Source of the DNA: Cephalotus follicularis
Taxonomy: Eukaryota > Streptophyta > Magnoliopsida > Oxalidales > Cephalotaceae
NCBI GenBank assembly: GCA_001972305.1
Contig: BDDD01002100.1
Span: 14,915 to 78,914 of the forward strand
Length of the DNA stretch: 64,000 nucleotides
Direction: 5' to 3'
In this document: positions 6,154 through 58,100 of the stretch, piece after piece
How positions within the stretch are numbered: the first letter of the stretch is position 1
How the letters are laid out: each line of letters starts with the position of its first letter
Notes under the pieces: model-generated
What the model was told of the DNA's origin: nothing
Database searches by the model: none
The model's input: the letters and a program-made list of their open reading frames with translations, nothing else
Position numbers and translations under genes: made by a program

Positions 6154-6642
6154 TGTAAGAATGTTTTCTTATATGGGCTTATATTAATTGGGTATTTATT
6201 ATTAAATAAAACCAGGCTGACTATTGGTCTAATAAAGTGGGACATACATATTCTAAATAGTCGTATATGGACTGGCTAGTGTGGGCTGTAGTAAACTAAT
6301 TAGGTTTTTGATGAGATGGCCCATTAGGTTACTAATAAGAATTAAATAATAGCTAGGTCTCCTCTCTTAACCCTAATCTTGACATAAGAGAAAATACACA
6401 TACAGTGTTGGAGAAGTTAGATAGCTATCTTCTCTATGTATTACGGTGCCTCATCGAGCCAGTGTTCTAGGGAATTAAGAGAGTTGTACCTTGCTTAATC
6501 ATGATCACTACATATTTCCGCTGCTTACCATGGATCCTAAACAAGGTACGATTTCTATCATTGTTATTTAGGTGTTTCTCTTCTATCTAAGGCGATCCTA
6601 GGGATTGATAAATTGATCAAGTATACAATTTTTTTGATTACA
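6154..6642 (+). repeat. Copia 5' LTR
   Basis: Starts TGTAAGAATG, ends TTTGATTACA; partner of the LTR at 13521-14009, same length. It is followed two bases later by the primer-binding site. Confidence 0.95.
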
Positions 6643-6644
6643 TG

Positions 6645-6656
6645 TGGTATTAGAGC
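6645..6656 (+). promoter_or_regulatory. Copia primer-binding site (initiator tRNA-Met type)
   Basis: TGGTATTAGAGC lies two bases after the 5' LTR; it differs by one base from TGGTATCAGAGC, the usual complement of plant initiator tRNA-Met 3' end. Confidence 0.85.
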
Positions 6657-6796
6657 GACCTTAGATTAGAATTGAAATCCTAATCAAGTTAAAGAAATAA
6701 TTGCGTATGATTCATGATTTGGGTATGACTTTGTTTTTGTATAAAACTGCTGCTTTAGGGTTTAACAAAAATCCTGAAGAAAAAAAAAAATCTCGC

Positions 6797-7030
6797 GTGA
6801 AAGACATTGATATCTTTGGCGAAAGACATTGATGTCTTTATGAGAAATCGACCTGTAACTTTTGAACTAAAGATATCGATGTCTTTGGCAAAAGACATTG
6901 ATGTCTTTGTGATATTTTGACCTGTAATTTTTGGATGAAAAACATCAATGTCTTTTGAAAGGACATCGATGTCTTTGTGTCTTGTTGCTATAACATCGAT
7001 GTTTTCCTTCAAGACGTCGATGTCTTTGAA
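6797..7030 (+). repeat. Array of self-complementary GACATCGATGTC-type motifs in copia leader
   Basis: About eight copies of an 16-18-base dyad, for example AAAGATATCGATGTCTTT (6869-6886), AAAGACATTGATGTCTTT (6892-6908) and AAGACGTCGATGTCTTT (7011-7027), sit in the untranslated leader between primer-binding site and gag. Flanking words such as GACCTGTAA repeat with them, so local duplication contributed. The minus-strand ORF across it reads as KDIDVF repeats and is not credible as a protein. Confidence 0.8.
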
Positions 7031-7620
7031 AAAAAGGCTTGATTGTTTAAATGCGCATGCAGAAAGTAATATATTCGGTATTGTGATATTACATGCGTGT
7101 ACATTCAATTATTAAAATACTTAAACGATGTAATTAGCATGACTTGTGATTTTAGGGACAATTCAAGCCCCATTATGTCCATCGTTCTAAAATCACACTA
7201 TGGTTTGATGAGGGTAATATAAAGTATACTCCAGTATGAAATAGTTTCACGGTTTAGTCAAGATGTAGTCACCAAAGTGGCCTTCTTGGTTGGATCTCTA
7301 ATTCTTGTGCATGATCATACGCCCAAAGGCGGTGGTCGTTTATTGGAATCAAGAGAGTACATATTGAAATACAATGTATATGGCAACCTCAAACAAGAAA
7401 AATAATTTGTATGCGGAAAATACAAATTAAGCAATGAATATAGACAATCACACAAGAACAAATAAATTAAAGAGTTAAGGGATAGAGATTGTGCAAACGA
7501 ATTTATAGTGGTTCGGCAAATCCGTGCCTACGTCCACTTTCTCAAGACCTCTTGAGTTTCCACTAGAATCCACTAGCAACCTTTGATTTTCGGCTTACGG
7601 GTGAAAATCAAAGAAACCAC

Positions 7621-7706
7621 CTTACACTTGATTTTGGGTTCCGGGTGCAAATCAAACAAACACCTTACACTTGATTTTGGGTTCCGGGTGCAAATCAAAG
7701 AAACAC
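7621..7706 (+). repeat. Two 43-bp tandem units in solo LTR A
   Basis: CTTACACTTGATTTTGGGTT...ATCAAA occurs twice head to tail (7621 and 7664). The copy of this LTR at 31770 has only one unit, so the duplication is private to this copy. Confidence 0.85.
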
Positions 7707-7989
7707 CTTACAAGGGTTCACTCCCCTCTTTTACAATGAATGAATTGTAAAGATAATATGTGTTTACAAATAACCTCTCAAAGGTTGGATATAAAAGTGT
7801 AAACAAAAGCTTGATGTAGATGTGCAAGTTTTAGCTTGGATGTTAGATGATCAAGGTTCTTCTCTCTAGTCACTTTGTTTTTGTTTCTTGACCTCTATTT
7901 ATAGCCTCATTCAGATTATAGCCGTTGCAAAAGTCTTGGACATTTTTGGATATAAAAATATGTTGATGCAGCCTTGTTTTAGTCTCTGC

Positions 7990-8430
7990 TGACAGAAAGA
8001 CGTCGATGTCTTTTGGAAAGGCGTCGATGTCTTTGACTGTTCCTAGCCGTTGAAAGTGCGCCAACTAGCCGTTCCATGTTTCCCGGTCTGTCCATTTAAA
8101 AAGACGTCGATGTCTTTTTAAAGGCGTCGATGTCATTTCTGGGAAATCTCCAGGCATTTGATTCTTTGAGTATCACGTCGACTTCTTCTTCATGGGTCGA
8201 TGTATTTTCTGGGATTTGCAGTTTGGTCTCGAAAGACGTCGATGTCTTAGGAAAGGGATCGACTTCTTTGGTACGGACGTCGATGTCATTTCTTGTATGG
8301 ATCGATGTCTTTCTCTAAAACATTTGATCAGTAGCATCTGGCACTAAAGACGTCGATGTCATTTTGAAAGGCGTCGATGTCTTATGTACGGACGTCGATG
8401 TCTTTTGTGGAAGATCAATGTCTTTGTCTG
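7990..8430 (+). repeat. Array of AAAGACGTCGATGTCTTT motifs in solo LTR A
   Basis: At least ten copies of a GACGTCGATGTC-type dyad between 7997 and 8428, often in pairs of the form AAAGACGTCGATGTCTTT followed by GGCGTCGATGTC. Spacing is irregular (about 20-70 bases). Two copies keep only the half GATCGA(C/T). Confidence 0.85.
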
Positions 8431-8819
8431 CAGATTAGTTTTGCCTTGGAATTGAACTTTGTAATATCTTGCACATCAAGCAACAAAGTTAAATGCAAAT
8501 TTGTAATCATTAAAACATATTATTGAGATTCAACAATCTCCCCATGATTGTGACTCAACACATATGAAGCATATGGTTGGGAATTGACTAGTCATGGAAG
8601 CCTATACACCCAAAGGTGGTGGAATGTCTATGGTTAGAATATATTCTCATGGCCGCTTCTATGTAAAAGTTTTGTAACTGCATGTCATGCATTCGCCCAA
8701 AGGTGCTTGTATGGTGATGCCTGCGAACTTTCATGTGTGCTTATACAGTTTCAAGTGACACATTGTTTGCTCTCATTGTGCTAATATTATACATTGTTTA
8801 TTTTACAGTCACTTTCTCT

Positions 8820-9655
8820 GTCAACAACAATACGGTAACTATTGAGGTCCTCACTGGGTCCAACTTCAAGAAGTGGAAGGAAGACATAGAGTTTGCTATG
8901 GAAATGACAGATGTAGATCTTTCGCTTGTTACGGATAAGCCTGAGGAATTAATTGTCGCTAGCACTAATGATGAGAAATTAGTGCATGCTGTCTGGATGA
9001 AAAGCAATCCAATTTGCCTACTATCCATGAGGAGGTCGATCTTGGATCACCTAAAAAGTGGCCTGCCAACTGATTGCACTGCTAAGGAATTGATGACTGC
9101 AATCAGTGAGAGGTATCGTGTTTCATCGAATGCTGATATAGGGAGACTATGTTATTCGTATGGTGGATTATCAGACCAAGCTGAAGGCACTTAAAGTTGA
9201 TATTCCGGATACTTGCATTGTGCACCAAGCCTTGAACACCCTTCCTCCTGAATTCAGTATCATCAAGACCAATTACAACTCTTAAGATGAATCATGGTCC
9301 ATCAATGATTTGATTTCAAGGGTCGTTCCTGGGGAGGAAAAGTTAATGAAGGAGAAGTGTCAAGTTTCTTTATATGTTGCTGGTTCTAATTCTCATAAAG
9401 GTAAGAAGTCCAAAACTTATACTAATAAAGTTGTTCATAGAACCACTAAAGAACCTGGTCAGTCTAGTAATATGGGTCCAAATAAAGTTTCTTTTAAGAA
9501 AAAGGGTGACCACTGCTTCTTTTGTAAGAAGAAAGGTCATATGAAGAAGGATTGTCTAAAGTATAAAGCTTGGTTGGCCAAACGTGAGAATATAGGTAAC
9601 GATTATTTGGCTCTAGTTTATGAATCCAATATATCTGAAGCCTCATCGAGTTCAT
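8820..9655 (+). pseudogene. Copia gag (capsid and zinc knuckle), frameshifted
   Basis: The capsid N-terminus reads IEVLTGSNFKKWKEDIEFAM near 8840, followed by DLSLVTDKP and an ISERYR block; the frame is lost near 9190, a stop occurs at 9283-9285, and the next open stretch (from 9310) ends in the nucleocapsid zinc knuckle CFFCKKKGHMKKDC (CX2CX4HX4C, about 9517-9558). Gag packages the element RNA into cytoplasmic particles. No clear start codon precedes the TGSN block in good context, so the start is set by homology. Confidence 0.82.
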
Positions 9656-10917
9656 GGTCGCTAGATAGCGGTGCAACTAACCATGTTACTTTCACCATAC
9701 AGGGGTTCATAAATAGAAGGAAGCCAAATAAGGATGAGTTAAAGCTCATAGTTGGAAACAATAAAGATGCAGACGTAGAGTTCGTGGGAGATGTCAATTT
9801 AGTTTCAGATTCCGGTTTAAATTGATGTTAAGAAATACTCTTTATGTACCGTCCTTTAGACGAGTTTCCTCGTTAGACAATCTTGGCTTTGAATTTGAAA
9901 TAAAGAACTCTACGGTTAATCTTTTTTTCAATTCAAATATGGTTGGCCATTGCACATTGTCTCGTGGACTTTATAGAGTGTGTTTGACTCCCAACGATAT
10001 ATATGTCTGTTATAATGTTAATAACATTGCATCTAAAATACCCTTACCTAAGGAACAATCTTTCATGTTATGGCATAAAAGGTTTGGCCATATCTCTAGG
10101 AAAAGAGTGGAAAGGCTGATAAAGTGTGATATCCTGCCTACTCTTGATTTCGGTGACCTAGAGACACGTATAGATTGCTGTAAGGGCAAAATGACCAAGA
10201 TAAGGAAGAAAACGGTAATCCAAAGTTCAGATATATTAGAAGTGATTCATACGGATATCAGTGAACCATATTCAGCCACATAATGTAGAAATTTTTATTT
10301 CATTATGTTCATTGATGACTACTCCCGATATGGTTATCTGTTCTTAATTAAGGAAAAGTCTCAAGCTCTTGGGAAATTCAAATCTTTCAGACTGAAGTTG
10401 AGAAACAGATGGCAAAAGTCATAAAGGTGGTTAGATCTGATAGGGGTGGTGAGTACTATAGCAGACATGGGTATGTTTGATAGCTTAAGGGCCCATTTGC
10501 CAAATACTTGGAGGATTGTGGGATAGTTGCTCAATTTACTATGCCTGGAAGTCGGAGCAAAATGGAGTGGCCGAAAGGCGTAACCGCACTCTTATGGAGA
10601 TGATGAGAAGTATGATTAGTAGGACGAACTTACCTGAGTTTCTTTGGGATGAAGCATTGAAAACAGCCCTTTGTATTCTAAATAGAGTTCCAAGTAAAGT
10701 CGTTGCACTTACTCCTTTCGAGTTATGGACTGGATGTAAACCTAGTCTTAATCATCTTAGAGTTGGGGGTTGTCCTGCAAAGGTGAAATTGTATACTCCA
10801 AGCTTAAATAAGCTAGATTCGAGATCCGTTCGTTGTTTCTTTGTTGGTTATCCAGACCATTCGAAGGGATACCGTTTCTATAACCATTATGGAGGTACTA
10901 GAATTGTGGAGTCATAG
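9656..10917 (+). pseudogene. Copia protease and integrase, frameshifted
   Basis: The aspartic protease motif WSLDSGATNHVT is intact near 9655. The frame then shifts near 9822. The integrase zinc domain has WHKRFGH but the usual CX2C reads RIDCC, so the first Cys appears replaced by Arg. The core begins HTDISEP, has a stop at 10281-10283, then FIDDYSRYGYLF, a frame change near 10375, VRSDRGGEYY, and QNGVAERRNRTLMEMMRSM, followed by the GKPS-like CKPSLNHLRVGGCPAKV and FVGYPDHSKGYRFY. These are copia integrase landmarks, order correct for Ty1/copia (integrase before reverse transcriptase). A stop follows at 10915-10917. Confidence 0.88.
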
Positions 10918-11129
10918 ACAGCAAAATTTTTAGAGTTTGATGTAGCCGAACAGGGTGATTGTTATAAAACCATTGAAGATAGTAGAGATCAAACGATGAC
11001 TGTATCTTTTTCCTTACCTACTCCAATGAATTTTAAATCTATTACACATGCAGTTGCACCTGTTGAGGTTGAGGCACCTGTTTAAGAGCCTATTGTTGAT
11101 ACTGTACCTACGGATGTTCTTCAGACACA

Positions 11130-12828
11130 TGATGTAGTAGTAGAGGTTCCAGTTAGGAGATCGACTCGTGAGAGGAGATCATCGATACCGCATTGCTATG
11201 AGATTTACTTGGGAGAAAGTGAGTACGATATCGGTTGTGTAATCGATCCATTAACTTATCTGGATGTTGTTGCTAGTACTCAATCAGATTTGTGGATGGA
11301 TGCAATGAAAGATGAGATGCAGTCAATGAGACATAATGGCGTTTGGGAACTTGTTGAATTTCCTGAAGGTTGCAAACCCATTGGTTAGAAATGGGTTTAT
11401 AAGACTAAAAGGGATTCAGAAGGGAAGATTGAGAAGTTTAAAGCCAGAATGGTAGCCAAGGGATTTAAACAGAGAGAGGGAATAGACTATAATGGAACTT
11501 TCTCTCCAGTCTCTTCGAAGGACTCTCTCAGGGTAATCATGGAATTAGTAGCTCATTTTGATTTGGAGTTACACCAGATGGATGTAAAGACCGCATTCCT
11601 AAACGGTAATCTTGATGAAGAGGTCTATATGGTACAGCTTGAGGGTTTTGCAGTTGATGGTAATGATCATCTTGTTTGTAGACTCAAGAAGTCTATATAT
11701 GGTCTAAAACAAGCTTCGAGACAGTGGTATTTTAGATTTGATGATGTTGTGACTTCTTTCGGTTTTAAAGAAAATACGGTGGATCAGTGTATATATCACA
11801 AAGTCAGTGGGAGCAAATTCATTATTCTTGTGCTATATGTGGATGATATCTTATTAGCAAGAAATAATCTAGGCAGGCTACATATGACCAAGCAGATGTT
11901 GTCTAATGAGTTTGACATGAAGGACCTTGGTGATGCTTCTTTTGTCCTTGGCATTCAGATTCATAGAGATCGTTCTAGCTATTTGTTGAGTCTATCTCAA
12001 AGGGCTTATATTGATCGTGTTTTGGAGAGATTCAGTATGTTGGATTGCAAACAGGAGAATGTTCCTGTTCTCAAAGGTGATAAGCTGAATTTGTTACAGT
12101 GTCCTAAAAATGATGTTGAAAGGGAAGCCATGAAGAAAGTGCCTTATGCTAGTGCAGTTGGGAACATCATGTATGCTCAAGTTTGTACTAGGCCGGATAT
12201 TGCTTTTGCAGTAGGACTTCTTGGCAGATATCAGTCTAATCCTGGTCATGATCATTGGGTAGCTACTAAGAAAGTTTTAAGATACTTGAAAGGAATGAGA
12301 GATTTTATGCTGACTTATAGGCGGGTTGATGATCTACAATTAGTGGGTTTTACATATTCTGACTTTGTTGGCTGTCGGGATGATAGGAAATCCACATCAG
12401 GTTATGTTTTTATGATGGTAGGTGGGGCAGTGTCTTGGAAAAGTGCAAAGCAGACGTTGATTGCTTCTTCGACCATCCAGGTAGAGTTTGTAGCGTGCTA
12501 TGGAGCAGCTACACAGGCAGTTTGGTTCAGAAATTTTATGAGGACATTCACTGTTGTTGATTTTGTGTCTAGGCCTATCCGGTTGTACTGTGATAATAGC
12601 TCTGTTGTGTTGTTTATAAATAATAATAAAAGTATCACAAGGTCTAAACACATACAGATAAAGTACTTGACCATCAAGGAAAATGTTAAGAACGGTGACA
12701 TTACGGTAGAGCATATTAGTACAGATGATATGGTTGTTGATCCCTTGACTAAAGGCCTTCGTCCTTGTATTTTTGAGAGACATGTAGCTAGTATGAGCTT
12801 GGTTGCATCATGGGATGCACTTGTTTAG
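11130..12828 (+). pseudogene. Copia reverse transcriptase and RNase H
   Basis: The reverse transcriptase begins before the long open stretch (11449-12828): RRSTRERRSSIPHCYE-like sequence and WMDAMKDEMQSM near 11300, then GCKPIG followed by a stop in place of the Trp of KWVYK (11386-11388). From 11449 the frame is clean: MVAKGFKQREGIDYNGTFSP, LHQMDVKTAFLNGNL, IYGLKQASRQWYFRFD and the catalytic YVDDILLA (about 11838). RNase H follows with STSGYVFMMVGGAVSWKSAK, VEFVAC, LYCDNSS and a C-terminal VEHISTDDMVVDPLTKGL. The 459-residue stretch from 11449 is the longest open frame in the window, yet the upstream stops mean no intact polyprotein. Confidence 0.93.
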
Positions 12829-13504
12829 TGGAAGTCAGTGGTTTTATTTTGCTCTATTTTTGTTTTCATTTGTATTATTTTATCTTTTGATAATATATCA
12901 GATTATATTGACTATGTCTTTTGCAATCAAATGAGTTGAATAAATTCAGTTTTTATTTCGACTGCTTTGTTTAAACACATTGGTGTTTTACATGTTGACA
13001 TGTCATATATATATAATTGTTTAAAGTCTTGAGATGTGTGTCAATCTTGAACAAATGTCGGGGCATTCAGTTATTGGCCTTAAAGGTATGTCTTGTGAGA
13101 CATAAAAATTTTCACGTGAAATAAGGTTAAAGACATATATGTTCATTGGAACCATATAGATTTTCTCTAGTGTGCCTATGCCACTTAAATAAAGAAAATT
13201 GGTGACTGACGATGAATAACACATGAGGAATTTGTAAAGTGTTATTAAATCGCCACACTACCATATTAAATCCATGTTAGTAGTGCTAAAAACTTTTGTG
13301 ACCATGGAAGGTCCTGTGTCACTTAAAAGATACAGTTATCGCCATGATTCAGAGTTTGAGGTTCTATGGGATAGGATTGACTATTGGAACAGTCTCTAGA
13401 CCAATAATTTTTTATACACGCAAAACTTTGAAACTTAGTTGACCTGTGTAATTGTTTTGATAAAATAAATATATTTATTTTTATTATTATATAACAATTA
13501 ATAT
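12829..13504 (+). other. Copia 3' untranslated region
   Basis: 676 bases between the polyprotein stop and the polypurine tract, AT-rich. Short ORFs on the minus strand show no recognisable domain. Nothing else seen. Confidence 0.6.
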
Positions 13505-13520
13505 AGCCCAAGTGGGAGAA
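13505..13520 (+). promoter_or_regulatory. Copia polypurine tract
   Basis: AGCCCAAGTGGGAGAA directly precedes the 3' LTR; AAGTGGGAGA is a typical copia plus-strand primer. Confidence 0.85.
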
Positions 13521-14009
13521 TGTAAAAATATTTTTTTATATGAGCTTATATTAATTGAGTATTTATTATTAAATAAAACAATGCTGACTATTGATCTAAT
13601 AAAGTGGGACATACATATTCTAAATAGTTGTATATGGACTGGCTAGTGTGGGCTGTAGTAAATTAATTAGGTTTTTGATGAGATGGCTCATTAGGTTACT
13701 AATAAGGATTAAATAATAGATAAGTCTCCTCTCTTAACTCTAATCTTGACATAAGAGAAAATACACATACAGTAGTGGAGAAGTTAGACGGCTATCTTCT
13801 TTGTGTATTACGGTGCCTCATCGAGCCAGTGTTCTAGGGAATTAAGAGAGCTGTACCTTACTTAATCAGGATCACTACATATTTCCACTGCTTACAATCG
13901 ATCCTAAACAAGGTACGATTTTTATCATTATTATTTAGGTGTTTCTCTTCTATCTAAGGCGATCATAGAGATTGATAAATTGATCGAGTATACAATTTTT
14001 ATGATTACA
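13521..14009 (+). repeat. Copia 3' LTR
   Basis: TGTAAAAATA...ATGATTACA, 489 bp, about 35 differences from the 5' LTR, many of them G-to-A or C-to-T, as expected for methylated repeats. Followed by TSD ATGTA (14010-14014). Confidence 0.95.
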
Positions 14010-29640: not shown

Positions 29641-30023
29641 CAGAGTTCATGGTACGCGAGATGGTAAGTGATGAACAGTTCATGTGTTCAGAATACATGC
29701 ACCGAACAGTATGCTTTAAGTATAATATAAATTTATATATATTATGTGAGTGATGGGATGATGGCTGATGTGAAAGAATAAGCAATAAAATATAGTGTAA
29801 TAAATGAATGCAATAATGAATACAATGATAAATGAATGATAAGTGTAGTGGGCATGGACGATAAGTACAGAGAAAGGGATGTTAAATGTAGAGTAAAATA
29901 ATGTGATGAAGCATAAAAATGTAGTGTTATATAAGTGATAAAGGCAGACCATATAGAAAGGAAATGCTAATGTACTGTTAATGTAGTGTAATGTTAACGT
30001 AGTGTAGTGTAATGTAATGTAAT

Positions 30024-30225
30024 GGATCACCACCGAGATGAGCCCTACGGGGATCACCACCGAGATGAGCCAGTAAGGCTATTTCTGAGATGACCTAATG
30101 GGTCACCGAATTGAGCTGAACCAGGTGGGTCACCGAGATAGCCGAGTGGATCACCGACTGAGATGAGCCATTGGATCACCAACTGAGATGAGACGATGAA
30201 TCACCGACGGAGTTGAGCCACGCCG
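30024..30225 (+). repeat. Tandem GATCACCGACTGAGATGAGCC units
   Basis: Seven degenerate units of about 25-30 bases built on GATCACC(A/G)ACNGAGATGAGCC. The array is repeated in the 3' LTR at 45200-45370 with one unit fewer. Confidence 0.8.
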
Positions 30226-30998
30226 ACTGAATGACTGTGATTGTATAGTGAATGTCTAGGTTCCTCTCCTTAGCCTATAACGCCTAGAGCGCGTATATTG
30301 CTCTTCCTAAAGCCGAGGACCCGAGGAACCGGTCTGCCTTAAATGTAATGTTTATTCCTGTCCCGAATCCTCTAACTTAAAGTCTGGAGTGCGTTATCGC
30401 TCCTCCTCAAGTAGGGGATGCAGAGGAAGGATTTATATGACTGTTAGTAATTGTCACTGATTATGAAGGACTGATAGTGACAGTGACTGTACTGAATGAA
30501 CAAGATTGTACTGTTATCGATTACGAGTGAATGTTATTGATTGGACTGAACTGTTATTGTATCTCTCATTGCATTACATATGCCTGTTGTATCTGCATCT
30601 TCCATCCGTATGTGGGTAGTAGTTACTACACGACCAGTGGTCACTGACCTATTACATTTTAATGTAATGAGTCAGGTACAGGTGGAGCTTGCAGCTAGCT
30701 GAGGATTGAAGCCCCGGGTGAGTCTCCTCCCTTTTTATTGCAGCTTGACGACCCAGGAGCATAAGGACATTGTATTTTTTTGTTTTATGACCTGCCGGCT
30801 TGCAGCAGAGCTGTTGTAAACAGTATTGTACATAACTGGGTAATATCCACTCAAGTGATATTTTATTGGATTTATTCCGCATGTGTTATTATATTGTTAA
30901 ATGTTTTTAATTATTCCGCTAAATTGGAAAAGAATGGTACTGTTCGTAGCGCGTCAAACCTTGGGGGTCCACACTTGGGGTTTGGGGCGTTACAGTTT

Positions 30999-31014
30999 TG
31001 GTATCAGAGCCAGG
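30999..31014 (+). promoter_or_regulatory. Gypsy primer-binding site (initiator tRNA-Met type)
   Basis: TGGTATCAGAGCCAGG, four bases after the 5' LTR, matches the usual complement of plant initiator tRNA-Met 3' end. Confidence 0.9.
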
Positions 31015-31769: not shown

Positions 31770-32918
31770 TGAAAGTCCTAAATGGCAACTTTTAGATAAT
31801 AAATTTGATTACGAAAAAGACAAATTAACCCATGAATATAAACAAGCACACAAAAAACAATCAAACAATTATAAGTAAAGAGAGAAAGGAAAGAGAGTGT
31901 GCAAATGATTTTATAGTGGTTCGGCAAAATCCGTGCCTACGTCCACTTTCTCAAGAACCCCTTGAGATTCCACTAGCGACCACTAGCAACCTTTGATTTT
32001 GGCTTACGGGTGCAAATCAAAGAAAACCACCTTACACTTGATTGACCCCCTTTGATAATCCTACTAAGGGTTCACTTCCCTTGATTATCTCAAGAATGAT
32101 TCACTCCTCTCTTATACAATGAAAGATATATATGGATGGTTTTGTGTTTACAAATTAACCTCTTAAAGGTTTGATATAAAAGTGTTTGACCGACAAGCTT
32201 TGAATGATTTGAAAGTTCAAGATGTTGAGCTCTTGTTCATAGATTGTGCAAAAGGTCCCATTGATCTTGTTTCTTGGTCTCTATATATAGCTTTGGTCTC
32301 TATATATAGCTTTCTTCAGTTTATGGCCGTTGTAAAAGTGTTATAGCCGTTGCTTGTTATCTTGGAAGTTGTTGCTGTAAAAGTGTTATAGTCGTTGCTT
32401 GTTATCTTGGAAGTTGTTGCTTCAAAGTCGGCTCTTTAAAACGCGATCAGTAATTTTTCCAGCTGCGCAAAGCATCGACGGTGTTGCTTAAAGCGTCGGT
32501 ACTTATGTTACCGTTATGCTTTGTATTTGAATTTTGTCGCTCAAACCGCTGGCGCTTTGATCTGGGTGTCGACTGTTTGGCATAAAGCGTTGACGCTTTC
32601 CCTTGAGCATTGCCGCTTTGAGTTCTTTAACTGTTTCCACAAGTCTCTGTTTTTAACCGCTGATGCAAGCTCCTTAAGCGTTGACGCCTTGGTTCAAACC
32701 GCTGAAGCTTTCCATTAGACCGTCGACGCATTAAGCAGATTTGTTGGCCTTTGTCTCCTATACTTGGCACAAAGCGTAGACGCTTTCCATTAGACAGTCG
32801 ATGCTTTATTCTGTTTCTGCACTTCTTAATTTTGTTTATCTTTTCTTGCACAGAAAGTAACAATGTTAAATACAAATTTGTAATCATTAAAACTTAGGAT
32901 TGAGACTAAAAGTCAACA
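31770..32918 (+). mobile_element. Solo LTR (family A), second copy
   Basis: TGAAAGTCCTAAATGGC...AAAAGTCAACA with perfect TSD ATATT at 31765-31769 and 32919-32923. It is homologous along its length to 7365-8560 but lacks one 43-bp unit and has its own duplications: TCTATATATAGCTT twice (32279-32312), and GTTGCTTGTTATCTTGGAAG twice (32352 and 32394). Confidence 0.87.
32450..32810 (+). repeat. Array of AAAGCGTNGACGCTTT motifs in solo LTR A
   Basis: AAAGCATCGACGG, AAAGCGTTGACGCTTT (32585), AAGCGTTGACGCC, AAAGCGTAGACGCTTT (32772) and partial forms. Position in the LTR matches the GACGTCGATGTC array at 7990-8430, but the arm sequence differs. Confidence 0.8.
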
Positions 32919-33249: not shown

Positions 33250-34039
33250 GTAGTAGATAAGTACAGAAATTAGAGGATGTTCTGGTAATTAGTGAATACT
33301 CGGACGTGTTCCGGAAGAACTAACGTCTCTACCTCCTGATAGAGATGTAGAGTTTCTATAGACTTGATACCGGAAAAACACCTATATCGAGATCTCCCTA
33401 TCGAATGGCTCCCCCTAAATTGAAAGAATTAAATGTACAATTGCTGGAGTTACTCGATAAAGGTTTCATCCGAATGAATGTTTCTCCATATGAAGCACAC
33501 GTCTTGTTTGTTAAAAAGAAGGACGGATCGTTGAGAATGGACACCGATTATTGGCAGCTTAATAAAGTGACTGTTAAGAATAAATATTCACTGTCGCATA
33601 TCGATGAGTTATTTGATCGACTGAGGGGATCAACGGTGTTCTCTAAGCTAGAACTGAGATCCGGATATCATCAGCTCAGAGTCCGAAAGGAAGATATTAT
33701 GAAGACAGTTTTTAGATCACAGTATGGACATTTTGAATTCGCGGTTATGCCGTTTGGGAAAACTAATACCCCTAGCGCATTTATGAGCTTGATGAACCGA
33801 GTGTTCGGTCCATATCTTGATCGCTTCATCGTAGTCTTTATCAATGATATCCTGGTGTACTCTAAAATAATGGAGGAACATGGAGAGCGCTTGCACTTGG
33901 CATTGCAAACTCTCACAGATCAACGGTTGCATGCCAAGTTCAGCAAATGCAATTTCTGGTTGTCATAGGTGATCTTTCTCGTTCGTATTATATCCAGTGT
34001 TGGATTGTCAGTAGATCCTTCAAAGATCGAAGCAGTTAA
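33250..34039 (+). pseudogene. Tekay-like reverse transcriptase (interrupted)
   Basis: From about 33250 decayed linker precedes [20 protein letters not shown] (33410), then [35 protein letters not shown] and [14 protein letters not shown]. The active-site block reads [11 protein letters not shown], where the family has FIDDIL, so the first catalytic Asp is Asn. The frame continues FSKCNFWLS, a stop at 33966-33968, then IISSVGLSVDPSKIEAVN, where a solo LTR interrupts it at 34040. The domain resumes at 36030 as NDWKRPMSVTEVRSFLGLAG. It cannot be active. Confidence 0.92.
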
Positions 34040-34615
34040 TGTAATGACCCGAATTTCTATTAAAGATATTAATTATGGAAAGATGATTGTTGTTGTGTAA
34101 TTGGAAAATATTTCAAGGGACCCGTAGTATGACCCTACGCTCGGGGGGTTCGGGGGTTCCGCTCCCCGGTGAGCGGATGGGGGGTCCCGCTGCCCGGACA
34201 GCGGGCAGGGGCTCAGGGGCAGCGCCCCCGGAAGAAAACGGAAATTGGTTATTGCTTTGTGCTGGAAATGTCTAAAGCGCCGCAATTTCTGGTTGTCAGA
34301 GGTGATCTTTCTCGGTCGTATTATATCCAGTGTTGGATTGTCAGTAGATCCTTCAAAGATCGAAGCAGTTAACGTAATGACCCGAATTTCCATTAAAGAT
34401 ATTAATTATGGAAAGATGATTGCTGTTGTGTAATTGGCAAATATTTCAAGGGACCCGTAGTATGACCCTACGCTCGGGGGGTTCGGGGGTTCCGCTCCCC
34501 GGTGAGCGAGCGGGGGGTCCCTCTGCCCGGACAGCGGGCAGGGGCTTGGGGGCAGCGCCCCCGGAAGAAAACGGAAATTGGTTATTGCTTTGTGCTGGAA
34601 ATGTCTAAAGCGCCG
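33950..34615 (+). repeat. 333-bp tandem duplication across a nested-insertion junction
   Basis: 33950-34282 and 34283-34615 are head-to-tail copies with few differences. Each holds the last 90 bases of reverse transcriptase (with the stop TAG in copy 1, AGAG in copy 2), the TSD GTTAA, and the first 243 bases of the solo LTR, including a GC-rich GGGGGGTTCGGGGGTTCCGC patch. The copying therefore came after the LTR insertion. Confidence 0.95.
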
Positions 34616-34840
34616 ACGGTTCCAGGTAAAGAGTCGACTCTTTGGAGGCAACCGACGACGCTCCAAATGTAAGCATCAACGCTTCGAGATCAAGTATTGA
34701 GGTTGACCTGGAGGAGACTTAAAGCGGCGACGCTTTGTAGGGAAGCGTCAGCGCTTTAGTCAGGATAGAAGTTGGAGAACTCAGGATAAGCCCGTGACCG
34801 GCGACGCTTAGGGATAAAGAGTTGACGCTTTGCCCTGTGT
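34600..34840 (+). repeat. GCGACGCTTT-type dyad motifs in solo LTR B
   Basis: AAAGCGCCGACGG, AAAGAGTCGACTCTTT (34627-34642), CATCAACGCTTCG, AAAGCGGCGACGCTTT (34720-34735), AAGCGTCAGCGCTTT and AAAGAGTTGACGCTTT. Several are self-complementary around GTCGAC or GCGACG. Confidence 0.75.
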
Positions 34841-35064
34841 CAGGTGCAGAATTCTAGATTTTTATCCCGTTTCGGAGGATTTAAATGGATTGTAGGATAC
34901 GTGTCAAGCAAGGGATGGAAGACTTATGTTTTTCTCCTGGAAAAGGGCAGGTGGCATCATTGGATTGGATGGAATTCCATCACATGGGCTGCTAAGGAGG
35001 CAAGCTCACATGGGTGAGGTCATGGATGACACCATGCAAGCTTGGCCTCCAAGTTTGCCTCTCC

Positions 35065-35072
35065 TATATAGA
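35065..35072 (+). promoter_or_regulatory. LTR TATA box
   Basis: TATATAGA in solo LTR B, 100 bases before a splice-donor-like GAG|GTAAGG at 35165. Confidence 0.45.
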
Positions 35073-36029
35073 TATGTGTAAATTCAGCTGATGAAGGGTT
35101 TCTTTTCTGCTGAGATTAGAGAGGAGGATGTTTGGGAGAGAAGAAGAGAAGGAGATCAAGTGAGGTAAGGAAATTCTATACCTATTTATGTCAAAGCTTC
35201 CTCTGTTTTGATTCAAAATTATGCAGCAGATAGTTTAATTCATATCTTGCTCATTTCCGGATGAAATTTCAAATGGTTGAATGTTTTGAAAACCTTAAGA
35301 TGTCTACTTTAACTGTTATGTTTTATGTATGTCGAAATTCTATCGAATTCTTGATGAAAAGCTATGTTTTCTTCTACTGCTCAGGTCCTCTTTTCAAAAG
35401 GAAACTATAACTTTAAAAATTCATTGCAGCTTCTTTTCTCAATGAAATTTTATGATTTTTATCTCTATGAATTCTTTGAGATGTCTAATTTAATGTTTAT
35501 GTTTTAAGTTTTCTATGAAAATGTTTATTTCCCTATAAAATTCAAGATTTAGAAAGGTTGTGCAAAATTGTTTTTATGAAGGTTTTGAGTTAAATTACTC
35601 AAAGTGATGAGAAATGTTTGATGATTGTGAAATGTTTCAAACAAATCTTCCAGGAAACGTTGAACGTGAAGTTGCGATCTTTAGAGGAAGTTCACGAAAA
35701 AAGTGTAAGGAAAGGAAGTATGATATGCTGTGAAGTTATGTTTAATGTCATATGTTTATGTTTTTCCACTGTGTAAGGTTACATGTTAAGTAATGTGCAA
35801 ATGCAATGGTATTAGAAATGATCATGATAATGAGAATATGATATTTTGAAATTAGTGTTCAAAGATGTAAGCATATGTGACCCTGTGAAGTGATAAACAT
35901 ATTGAATATGATATGAAATGGATCGTTAAATGGTTAAATGATTTGACGGTCAAAGGTCACACCCACGTAACGCACCGATCTTCGGAGCTCGCTTTGAGCA
36001 TAAAGCGGACTCAGGTCGGGGGTGCTACA

Positions 36030-45056: not shown

Positions 45057-46131
45057 AGAAATGTAAAGTAAAATAATGTGATGAAGCATAAAAATGTAGT
45101 GTTATATAAGTGATAAAGGCAGACCATATAGAAAGGAAATTCTAATGTACTGTTAATGTTGTGTAATGTTAACGTAGTGTAGTGTAATGTAATGTACTGG
45201 ATCACCACCGAGATGAGCCAGTAAGGCTATTTCTGAGATGACCTAATGGGTCACCGAATTGAGCTGAACCAGATGGGTCACCGAAATAGTCGAGTGGATC
45301 ACCGATTGAGATGAGCCATTGGATCACCAACTGAGATGAGCCGATGGATCACCGACCGAGTTGAGCCTCGCGAACTGAATAACTGTAATTGTATAGTGAA
45401 TGTCTAGGTTCCTCTCCTTTGCCTATAATGCCTAGAGCCCGTATATTGCTCTTCCTAAAGCCGAGGACCCGAGGAACCGATCTGCCTTCAATGTAATGTT
45501 TATTCCTGTCCCGACTCATCTACCTTAACGTCTGGAGTGCGTTATCGCTCCTCCTCAAGTAGGGGATGACGAGGAAGGATTTATATGACTATTAGTAATT
45601 GTCAATGATTATGAAGGACTTATAGTGACAGTGACTGTACTGAATGGAAAAGACTGTACTGTTATCGATTACGAGTGAATGTTATTGATTGGACTGAACT
45701 GTTATTGCATCTCTCATTGCATTGCATAAGTCTGTTGCATCTGCATCTTCCATCCGTATGTGGGTAGTAGTTCCTACACGACCAGTGGTCGCTGACCTAT
45801 TGCATTTTAATGTAATGAGTCAGGTACAGGTGGAGCTTGCAACTAGCCGAGGATTGAATCCCCGGGTGAGTCTCCTCCATTTTTATTAAAGTTCGACGAC
45901 CCAGGAGCATAAGGACATTGTATTTTTTGTTTTATGACCTGCCGACTTGTGGTAGAGCTGTTGTAAATAGTATTGTACATAACTGGGTAATATCCACTCA
46001 AGTGATATTTTATTGGATTTATTTCGCATATGTTATTATATTGTTAAATGTTTTTAATTATTCCGCTAAATTGGAAATGATTGGTACTGTTCGTACCCTG
46101 AGGGTCCACCCTTGGGGTTTGGGGCTTTACA
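45057..46131 (+). repeat. Tekay-like 3' LTR, segment 2
   Basis: AAGTAAAATAATGTGATGAA onward aligns with 29888-30994 of the 5' LTR, including the tandem GATCACC units (45200-45370) and the terminal GGGGCTTTACA. The GC-rich block present in the 5' LTR is missing here. Confidence 0.9.
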
Positions 46132-54308: not shown

Positions 54309-54910
54309 TGTTCAAATGTTTTGAATGTTTTAAATTTATACCGCAAGTACACGGTTGTGCAGTAACAGGTCGAACGCTAGGAAACAAGCTAAATTAATTT
54401 TAATCTATCCAACCTAGGCAAAGTATGCAAAATTTGAGGTTGATTATTAAAAACTACTCCTAAATATGAAAAAATAAATAAAAAGTTGAAACATGCTAAT
54501 AAAGCATCGTCGCTATATAGGAAGGCATCGACAATATAACTTCAAAAAATGAAAGCGTCAACGCTATCAAGAGAAGCGTCAACGGTTATGACAAAGGCAC
54601 TGAAAGCGTCGACGCTTATAGCAAGGCATAGACGGTTAACTGTTCTAAATTGAAAACTAACGAAAATTGAAGATGGAAACTATTAACTAACAAATCAATA
54701 AATAACAGTGAAGAAAATATGCAAGGTAAAACGGTTCTAAGGAATAGAAACTCACCATAGATTATATTGAACAACTCACTTACTTGATTGATCAAACCTT
54801 GATAACCAACGTCAACTAGGTCGATACGGAGTGCGACTGTGATGACAAATCATCAGCGCTTAGTGCTTAAGCGTCGACAGTTTACTCTACACTGTCAGCG
54901 CTTAATGCTT
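54309..54910 (-). repeat. Athila-like 5' LTR, 3' portion, with CGTCGACG motifs
   Basis: The minus-strand end reads CATTTGAACA just before the primer site and the nearby ACCGTGTACTTGCGGTATAA is typical of the group. From 54500 to 54910 there are GAAAGCGTCAACGCT, AAGCGTCAACGG, GAAAGCGTCGACGCTTAT (54602-54619), AAGCGTCGACAG and CAGCGCTTAATGCTT. The LTR start is lost near 54910. Confidence 0.65.
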
Positions 54911-55096
54911 CCATGCACGTTCATCGTCAGAGATACGTCAAACTAGCGAAGGTTAGACAACAACTGGGAATTCTGCTATTACATTTCATGTTTGCGTTTC
55001 ACAATTTAAATCATGTAATCACCCAAACAATTCAAGCATATCATCATAAACAAAATCCAACTGCACATATGCATCAAATCCGCTCTAATACCATTT
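54911..55096 (-). mobile_element. Copia leader with primer-binding site (minus strand)
   Basis: GCTCTAATACCA at 55082-55093 is the reverse complement of TGGTATTAGAGC, three bases from the LTR. The leader is only about 170 bases before it meets Athila LTR sequence, so the rest of this copia element is gone. Confidence 0.65.
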
Positions 55097-56814: not shown

Positions 56815-58100
56815 TCAACTTCTAAGGGTTGAAGCATAAATTTGTAGAACATATCGAATTAAAAAAGTAGGTTTAAGCGTTGATGCGTACAGTTTATGCG
56901 TTAACCTTCCAGGCTTAAAACTGTACACATAAACGCATATATTGAATACCTTCTCAGAAAGTGTGCACGCAGTGTAGGTCAAATGTACACAGGGAATAAT
57001 GTATGCGTACATGGAATATAACTGGTATGTACATTGTGAAAAAACTCGCTTAGTGGAAGCGGAAAAAACAAGGTGCACGTATTACACCAAAGCAGTATGT
57101 AGTGTGCAAGGGAGGTTTTGAGAATGGACGGCGGCGTCAGCATGTACATGCTTGAATAAAGGTAAGGTGCGTACAAATACCACCTGTGTGAGTGAGAATT
57201 GGTAGTCATTAGACCCATGACTAACAAAACAACTAGCCTTGGTACATTAGTTGCAATGTGTTGATTAGTTGAGTTTGAACAGATACCGTAAGGGTTTTTT
57301 TATGGACCTTCTATAAAGGCGTACTCACAGTGTAGGACAACGTACACACAAAATAAAGTAGGTGTACATAGAATATCCCTAGTATGTACATTATGAAAAA
57401 AATCACTTCGTAGAAGTAGAAAAAGAGGATACCCAGTTGCTGATATAATTATAGATTTGGTTTTGACCTTTTTGTCTTTCGTCCAATATTTATGAATAAT
57501 AGAAAGAATAGACGAAGGAGACCTTTGGGGATTTCATAAAGATTTTCTAACAGATCTTCCTAGAAAGTGTACACGTAGTGTTGGTCAGATATACACATAG
57601 AATAACCTATGCGTATGGGATATGATTTTTATGCACATTGTGAAAAAACTCGCTTAGTGGAAGTGGAAAAATAGGGTGCACGTATGCCAGCAAAGCAGTA
57701 TGTAGTGTGCGAGGGGGGTTTAGGAATGGTCGACAGTCGTGAGCATGTACATGCTTGAATAAAGTTAGGGTACGTATGAATAAAATCTGTGTGTGTAAAA
57801 ATTGGTAATCGATCGGTCGATGACTAACAAAAAACTAGTCTCGGTACATTAGTTGTATTCCGATGATTAATTGAGTTTGAACGGATATCGTAAGGGTTTT
57901 TTTTTATGCACTTTCTATGAAAGCATACATGCAGTGTAGCATAAACATACATATAGAATAACGTAGGCGTACATAGAATATGCCTAGTATGTACATTATG
58001 AAAAAAGTTACTCCGTTGAAGCAGAAAAAGAAAACACATATTCCTTACAAGTATGATGTAGTGTGAAAGGCTTAACCACTTTATGGAAATGTCTTAAACC
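56815..58100. repeat. 606-bp higher-order tandem repeat
   Basis: Two units begin at about 56955 and 57561 and share CTCGCTTAGTGGAAG, AAAGCAGTATGTAGTGTGC, GCATGTACATGCTTGAATAA, GGTACATTAGTTG and a CGTAAGGGTTTTTTT. Each unit holds two related sub-units of about 110 bases (starts 56955, 57312, 57561, 57916; steps about 357, 249, 355) with GTGTAGG..GTACA...TAGTATGTACATTATGAAAAAA. No coding potential. Confidence 0.82.

Follow-up and report, generated by a model that had tools for sequence, protein, structure and literature searches.

In the copia element Tnt1, the U3 region holds an activator box, with few boxes and a sequence other than the one described here. Bousios et al. are said, in 2016, to have described the palindromes in the LTRs of maize Sireviruses as a fast-changing cis region with the potential to form hairpins. 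In 13 Sireviruses, palindromic repeated motifs (RM boxes) have been reported that precede the TATA box (Bousios et al. 2010, PMC2829016). According to the sections of that paper on RM boxes, the boxes share a CGG-CCG core with one exception, Tnd-1, the motif is Sirevirus-specific and absent from classic copia elements, small changes in a box may alter the nuclear factor that is bound, and box I of the Tnt1 U3 is symmetric (PMC2829016). The parts of two further papers used here present the palindrome-rich LTR regions of maize Sireviruses as hotspots of small RNAs (PMC5311732, PMC10760457). Judged by the sections of PMC5735166 used here, the target arrays of VANC in VANDAL elements are the nearest case of motif arrays that change between related elements.

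The present window, by which we mean the whole 64-kb stretch of DNA that was analysed, looks like plant DNA, is rich in LTR retrotransposons and contains six arrays of dyad boxes, 50 boxes in all, in at least four retrotransposon families (Table 1). Over the whole window and on both strands, AAAGACGTCGATGTCTTT has 29 matches at up to three mismatches, compared with 0.10 expected, and AAAGCGTNGACGCTTT has 33, compared with 1.23 expected; the arrays are genuine and greatly exceed the chance expectation. Boxes were scored by running both consensus boxes over six regions preselected by motif matches (thresholds 10/16 or 12/18), and an overlapping weaker centre at 8105 was left out, which gives 50 boxes and 44 gaps. 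With weight matrices built from the boxes, no doublet elsewhere in the window rose above the largest value of 20 shuffled windows. A first-pass annotation had reported dyad boxes in the copia leader, in LTR A and in a second LTR copy, all of which were confirmed (arrays 1 to 3); its inventory was real but incomplete, missing arrays 4 to 6, and it did not mention the regular 21-bp spacing of box centres. We propose, with rather more confidence than doubt, that the arrays are cis-regulatory DNA, in promoters or leaders, in which the dyads are putative sites for a dimeric protein, with neighbouring dimers lined up along the same helix face.

Table 1. Retrotransposon features and box arrays of the window, with the distances between successive box centres.
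Feature	Position	Strand	Description	Centre gaps (bp)
Copia element 1	6154..14009	+	self-BLAST, ends, Pfam	
Array 1	6800..7027	+	8 dyads, 18-bp form; 5' leader of element 1, ~150 bp past primer-binding site (PBS); centres 6808, 6830, 6877, 6899, 6946, 6967, 6997, 7018	22 47 22 47 21 30 21
LTR A	7381..8535	-	Sirevirus-like, TG...CA ends; inside leader of element 1	
LTR A TATA-like box	7896-7903	-	by eye	
Array 2	7996..8425	-	14 dyads, 18-bp form, groups 2, 2, 2, 4, 4; U3 of LTR A upstream of TATA-like box	21 83 20 51 19 42 20 21 22 51 21 21 20
Polypurine tract + attachment site ATGGGGAG/AT/TG	8534..8545	-	11/12 letters of Sirevirus twelvemer (consensus: PMC2829016)	
LTR B	31783..32918	-	homologue of LTR A	
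LTR B TATA-like boxes	32282-32289 and 32301-32308	-	by eye	
Array 3	32469..32807	-	11 dyads, 16-bp form, groups 2, 4, 3, 2; U3 of LTR B, place equivalent to array 2	21 53 20 21 20 71 21 21 54 21
Solo LTR C	34040..36029	+	TGTAATGACC...GGTGCTACA, target duplication GTTAA; splits gypsy reverse transcriptase (RVT_1)	
Array 4	34607..34831	+	8 dyads, 16-bp form, groups 4, 2, 2; U3 of LTR C	21 21 21 51 21 53 21
Gypsy LTR (inferred)	54309..54773	-	ends TGTTCAA...TTGAACA	
Array 5	54501..54638	-	6 dyads, 16-bp form; three doublets in inferred gypsy LTR	21 30 21 30 20
Array 6	54847..54904	-	3 weak dyads, 16-bp form; remaining leader of second element	21 21

Two forms of the box were found, and both reduce to the single pattern AAAG(A)CRTCGAYG(T)CTTT. 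The 18-bp form of arrays 1 and 2 has the half-site GATGTCTTT, with an extra A/T per arm, and the 16-bp form of arrays 3 to 6 has the half-site GACGCTTT, the majority half-site in array 6 being GACGCTTA. From array 1 to array 6 the consensus is symmetric at 9/9, 8/9, 8/8, 8/8, 6/8 and 4/8 positions; consensus symmetry is thus shown for arrays 1 to 4, and is weaker in array 5 and poor in array 6. The first-pass annotation had taken both forms for dyads, which is correct for the leader and for LTR B, while the LTR A form is imperfect, with G/T at +/-3. Its version of the leader motif, containing ACGTCGATG, was mistaken, as the true consensus is AAAGACATCGATGTCTTT and ACGTCGATG occurs there only once, at 7010. 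Agreement with the half-site is better on the right than on the left in array 1 (0.94/0.85), array 2 (0.90/0.70), array 3 (0.84/0.73) and array 4 (0.84/0.77), and the order is reversed in array 5 (0.73/0.85) and array 6 (0.67/0.75). The unequal halves of the LTR A boxes are as expected if half-sites are read singly, and these boxes are oriented despite their symmetry, since their plus-strand half, GATGTCTTT, is the better conserved.

Boxes stand in groups of two to four with centres about 21 bp apart. Thirty of the 44 gaps measure 19-22 bp and 20 are exactly 21 bp, compared with a mean of 8.9 gaps at 19-22 bp (maximum 19 in 20,000 trials) for random placement within the same spans. This distance is common to the 16-bp and 18-bp boxes, and in array 4 the spacing within groups is exactly 21. 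By motif-free autocorrelation, too, the strongest or second-strongest lag of all six arrays is 21 bp, or 22 bp in the case of array 1; two of three control stretches are without lag 21, and the LTR of element 1 tops at lag 21 with a weak z of 2.2. A strict motif-free search for two like 16-mers, each paired at 6/8 positions, recovered doublets at 21-22 bp from arrays 1 and 2 only, six in number. LTR C gave two more at a distance of 28 bp, and single doublets turned up at 16, 30 and 35 bp; 20 shuffles produced one doublet altogether. The same search returned no doublet at 21-22 bp in arrays 3 to 6, the boxes there being too imperfect to pass, and this result, together with the lesser symmetry of arrays 5 and 6, lowers our confidence in the protein reading. 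In the arrays with at least four 21-bp doublets, dyad and linker identity are 0.80/0.57 (LTR A), 0.62/0.40 (LTR B) and 0.69/0.32 (LTR C), a contrast that is inflated because boxes were chosen by similarity to the consensus in six picked regions. The larger gaps show a weak lean towards whole turns at 10.5 bp (11/14 within 0.15 turn; P ~0.01, or 0.006 with repeats removed), and the count falls to 4/14 at 10.6 bp.

The arrays lie close to promoters and occur in unrelated elements: arrays 2, 3 and 4 are upstream of a TATA-like box, located by eye, and arrays 1 and 6 are in leaders. Element 1, which carries array 1, has LTRs at 6154-6642 and 13521-14009 (93% alike by self-BLAST) with the target duplication ATGTA on either side, a PBS-like GGTATTAGAGC at 6646, the polypurine tract AGTGGGAG ahead of its 3' LTR, and the Pfam domains RVT_2, gag_pre-integrs, SH3_retrovirus and Pol_BBD. 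LTR A had been described as a solo LTR; it is indeed an LTR, on the minus strand, but it stands beside a remnant polypurine tract (8538-8545) and no target duplication was seen by eye. The tract and attachment site are found exactly at the start of LTR A and are the sole match in the window at up to one mismatch. Downstream of the TATA-like box of LTR A, positions 7583-7712 hold three successive copies of a 43-bp unit (91% matches).

LTRs A and B align at 73.6% over 7396-7800/31794-32185, at 82% over 7893-7937/32298-32342 and at 87% over 8467-8528/32844-32905. Their homology thus reaches the array from close to the LTR start and resumes before the TATA-like box to continue to the end, while the array stretches themselves were left unjoined by BLAST between the two LTRs. 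Because the LTRs align outside the arrays, arrays 2 and 3 are in an equivalent place, at 110-539 bp past the start of the 1155-bp LTR A, with the TATA-like box beyond, and at 111-449 bp of the 1136-bp LTR B. Two earlier claims, that related LTRs carry two forms at an equivalent place and that consensus symmetry is kept there while arm sequence changes, are upheld by this homology on both flanks. Sirevirus boxes form CpG islands (PMC2829016); in these two arrays the CpG observed/expected ratio is 1.44 (LTR A) and 1.22 (LTR B) compared with 0.54 and 0.62 in the rest of the LTRs, at a G+C of only 0.44 and 0.46.

LTR C, the superfamily of which is presumed from its ends, interrupts a gypsy reverse transcriptase whose reading resumes past 36030. 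Array 4 is followed by a TATA-like box at ~35065, roughly 235-460 bp farther downstream. A tandem duplication of 333 bp at 33949-34615 (96% alike) runs across the junction between the left end of LTR C and the reverse transcriptase; since it spans the insertion junction, it arose after LTR C inserted. LTR C contains, in addition, another dyad pair, CGCTCCCCGGTGAGCG and CGCTGCCCGGACAGCG, 28 bp apart, at 34152-34211 and 34485-34544, which is G+C-rich and unlike the main box. Further along the window, array 5, inside the inferred LTR, precedes a gypsy element whose pol domains, at 52281-48898, come in the order protease-RT-RNase H-integrase. No second LTR for this element was found in the window by self-BLAST, and the four ORFs of its gag region are without a Pfam match. 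A placement of 54501-54638 in a copia leader was dropped when gypsy LTR ends were found flanking it. Array 6 is downstream of a copia-type PBS at 55082-55092.

Other repeats are present in the window. Direct repeats of 1.1 kb at 29884-30994 and 45059-46131 (91% alike, 15 kb apart) are probably the LTRs of another element, an exact GGTATCAGAGC primer-type site occurs at 31000 beside the first of them, and the doublet scan detected no box array in either. At 56948-58070, a repeat of ~480 bp occurs twice (81%), and shorter repeats of ~120-160 bp are nested within it.

Several explanations other than protein binding have to be weighed. The boxes could be RNA hairpin arrays kept by folding of the transcript, serving small RNAs or RNA packaging or dimerisation. 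The first-pass annotation had pointed to pairing as well; covariation of arms within arrays, the test named beforehand for it, is absent. Watson-Crick pairs number 280/422, compared with 282.5 after shuffling halves within arrays (P = 0.73; single-array P 0.28-0.98), where arrays 5 and 6 are pooled, as they are for folding, while the spacing test keeps their gaps apart. One-sided changes account for 125 cells, compared with 5 paired and 9 unpaired double changes. A structure-pair counter gave the 16-bp boxes (25/28, three of array 6 being left out) a covariation score of 0.161 compared with 0.185 shuffled, all five measures falling below the shuffled mean, and the 22 18-bp boxes 0.225 compared with 0.207 (119/500 shuffles as high), the measures being slightly above the shuffled mean with 82 to 290 of 500 shuffles as high; RNA covariation was rejected on the permutation and on the counter with its two alignments. 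Moreover, a second flavour, AACCG/CGGTT at +/-5 of the 16-bp boxes, is found in one arm of 13/28 boxes and in both arms of 0/28; the expectation for both arms is 1.5, so that the deficit is not significant and its direction is opposite to compensation. On the transcribed strand, array 1 (6:3) and the pooled arrays 5 and 6 (10:5) have more G.U than A.C, as hairpins would have it, but A.C is commoner in LTR A (3:21), LTR B (5:13) and LTR C (4:6), and these LTRs argue against selection for an RNA stem because such selection would favour G.U. Folding is similarly divided. The sense RNA of array 1 reaches a z of -10.5, which is strong because tandem palindromes must fold, and arrays 5 and 6 (z -3.31, 0/100 shuffles as good), LTR A sense (z -2.98, 1/100) and LTR C (z -2.58, 3/200) fold moderately better than shuffles, but LTR A folds worse in the sense direction than on its other strand (z -7.61) and LTR B sense reaches only -1.29 (11/100). 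The small-RNA hotspots of maize Sireviruses would suit hairpins, whereas Rfam has no match at gathering score in the window. Taken together, we consider hairpins quite unlikely as the reason for the boxes, and RNA roles are possible for the leader arrays 1 and 6. With no covariation and unequal halves, symmetry belongs to the consensus, which is what a dimer reading two half-sites would lead one to expect.

It is unlikely, too, that the boxes are neutral tandem repeats, that is, a functionless palindromic 21-bp unit multiplied by slippage and moved between elements by recombination. A 21-bp tandem unit arising by slippage would equally yield the 21-bp spacing; block duplications do exist (a 69-bp unit in array 1, by tandem-repeat finder), and array 1 and LTR A share a 30-bp match of 86.7% identity that covers a doublet. 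This pair has cross-matches clearly longer than the dyad (30, 29 and 23 bp), and exchange between the two is possible because the matches run beyond it. Among the 25 longest of 81 matches, however, those outside this pair have at most 16-19 bp, approximately the dyad itself, and whole-array exchange between families was rejected on that ground. Linkers differ while spacing is constant, two box lengths share one centre distance, and all six arrays are in LTR or leader DNA where elements are placeable, none of which favours neutral repeats. Finally, the boxes might be targets of a transposon-encoded anti-silencing protein similar to VANC, with several retrotransposon families riding on one factor. 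In the sections of PMC5735166 used here, repeated short non-coding motifs vary between related elements and one VANC hits an unrelated element, both of which would agree with this idea, as would signs of methylation in the 16-bp boxes: CpG positions in the 28 boxes read CG in 51/84 cases, TG or CA in 24 and otherwise in 9, and transitions to transversions are 26:8 at these positions compared with 23:40 elsewhere in the box. This pattern looks like decay of methylated CpG, and copies with 16-bp boxes were therefore probably silenced; part of the A/G and C/T variation of arms at +/-3 may be ordinary CpG decay, so that some symmetric-looking changes require no selection. Against VANC-like targets, the 15/21 listed ORFs of element 1 that were scanned with Pfam (six small ORFs left out) comprise 4 of copia pol type and 11 without a match, with no DNA-binding or VANC-like domain seen; a candidate factor was not found; the elements other than element 1 are fragments or solo LTRs; and the word stem "palindrom-" is absent from PMC5735166. 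We regard such targets as very improbable.

Binding of a dimeric protein to the DNA is favoured over RNA in view of the missing covariation between arms and the poorer pairing of LTR A on its transcribed strand, and of the possibilities raised in the first-pass annotation a palindromic protein site fits best. Each dyad would be occupied by a dimer of a DNA-binding protein with sequence specificity, which is probably a transcription factor of the host and would recognise the half-sites GACGCTTT or GATGTCTTT separately. Two to four dimers would be placed ~21 bp (two helical turns) apart on the same helix face and would probably help each other to bind. Such platforms are most likely enhancers of retrotransposon transcription, activating rather than repressing it, because their position is either ahead of the TATA box in U3 or shortly past the primer-binding site in the 5' leader. 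Arms could change while symmetry stays because both arms would be held to one half-site preference and because copying of boxes inside an array would let a new half-site form propagate. A whole array might plausibly change form by gene conversion or slippage between its boxes. Among the matches listed in a literature search on the box motifs there was nothing on retrotransposon boxes, and the motif combined with LTR retrotransposons returned an HIV paper only. We know of no candidate transcription-factor family that fits the boxes. In viral contigs, the two doublet patterns had 0 matches and the copia RT was without a relative; a single 16-bp box in 3 viral contigs, one site each, was taken as chance.

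Palindromic boxes in LTRs have been interpreted in two ways, as sites in promoters and as hairpins feeding silencing. The two-turn geometry is kept across boxes and elements and the pairing of arms is not, which argues for protein binding, and the doublet of 37-39 bp provides a precise probe for finding the factor. If the factor is common to unrelated retrotransposons, it would be a shared control point over their activity. A bolder suggestion, which we hold to be doubtful, is that unrelated copia and gypsy families converged on one code, with the same half-site type, two-turn doublets and one dimeric factor, and that arrays switch form together when the factor changes; were this true, it would amount to an arms race over a shared control protein in retrotransposon promoters. 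It should be noted that the evidence comes from one 64-kb window.

The boxes of LTRs A and B are similar to the RM boxes of Sireviruses as these are given in the RM sections of PMC2829016. In both cases there are dyad boxes, at least 8 per element (14 in LTR A and 11 in LTR B), mostly in the upper half of the LTR and upstream of TATA, which vary in sequence between elements and are CpG-rich, here as judged by the observed/expected ratio. The cores GTCGAC and ATCGAT also occur in boxes of Vitis (CGGTCGACCG) and Tnd-1 (ACAATCGATTGT) (PMC2829016). The Sirevirus polypurine tract AGGGGGAG followed by AT/TG is matched at 11/12 letters at LTR A, and none is present at LTR B; LTR A is probably a Sirevirus LTR, though its box core differs. 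Unlike Sirevirus RM boxes, LTRs A and B are without the CGG-CCG core, the core here being CRTCGAYG, and their boxes start ~110 bp past the LTR start compared with 200-400 bp in Sireviruses (PMC2829016). The form of the box differs within one LTR family, between LTR A and LTR B, which departs from the Sirevirus RM description in the same sections. In contrast to the claim of a Sirevirus-only motif, a like box is found in the leader of element 1, an element with 489-bp LTRs whose polypurine tract is a substitution among the commonest in classic elements (PMC2829016), and in the inferred gypsy LTR with array 5. The spread among element types is thus wider than these sections lead one to expect, and they contain no mention of the 21-bp doublet geometry.

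Like the palindromes of maize Sireviruses, as far as the parts of the sources used here describe them, the arrays belong to a cis region of the LTR that is rich in palindromes, changes fast and could form hairpins; they differ in lacking covariation between arms and in that LTR A folds less well in the sense direction. With VANC targets in VANDAL elements they share short tandem motifs in non-coding transposable-element DNA that change between related families, but VANDALs are DNA transposons with their own VANC gene, none being seen in the scanned ORFs of element 1, and their motif is not described as palindromic in the sections of PMC5735166 used here. Among the literature matches listed (titles and abstract starts, with subscription journals outside the scope), no description was found of a 21-bp doublet rule or of similar boxes occurring both in copia leaders and in a gypsy LTR. 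Overall, the regulatory architecture of the arrays is real and very far from random. Its general kind, palindromic boxes in LTRs, is known; what is new is the 21-bp geometry, the presence of similar boxes in the leader of a classic-looking copia element and in a gypsy LTR, and the switch of form within an LTR family.
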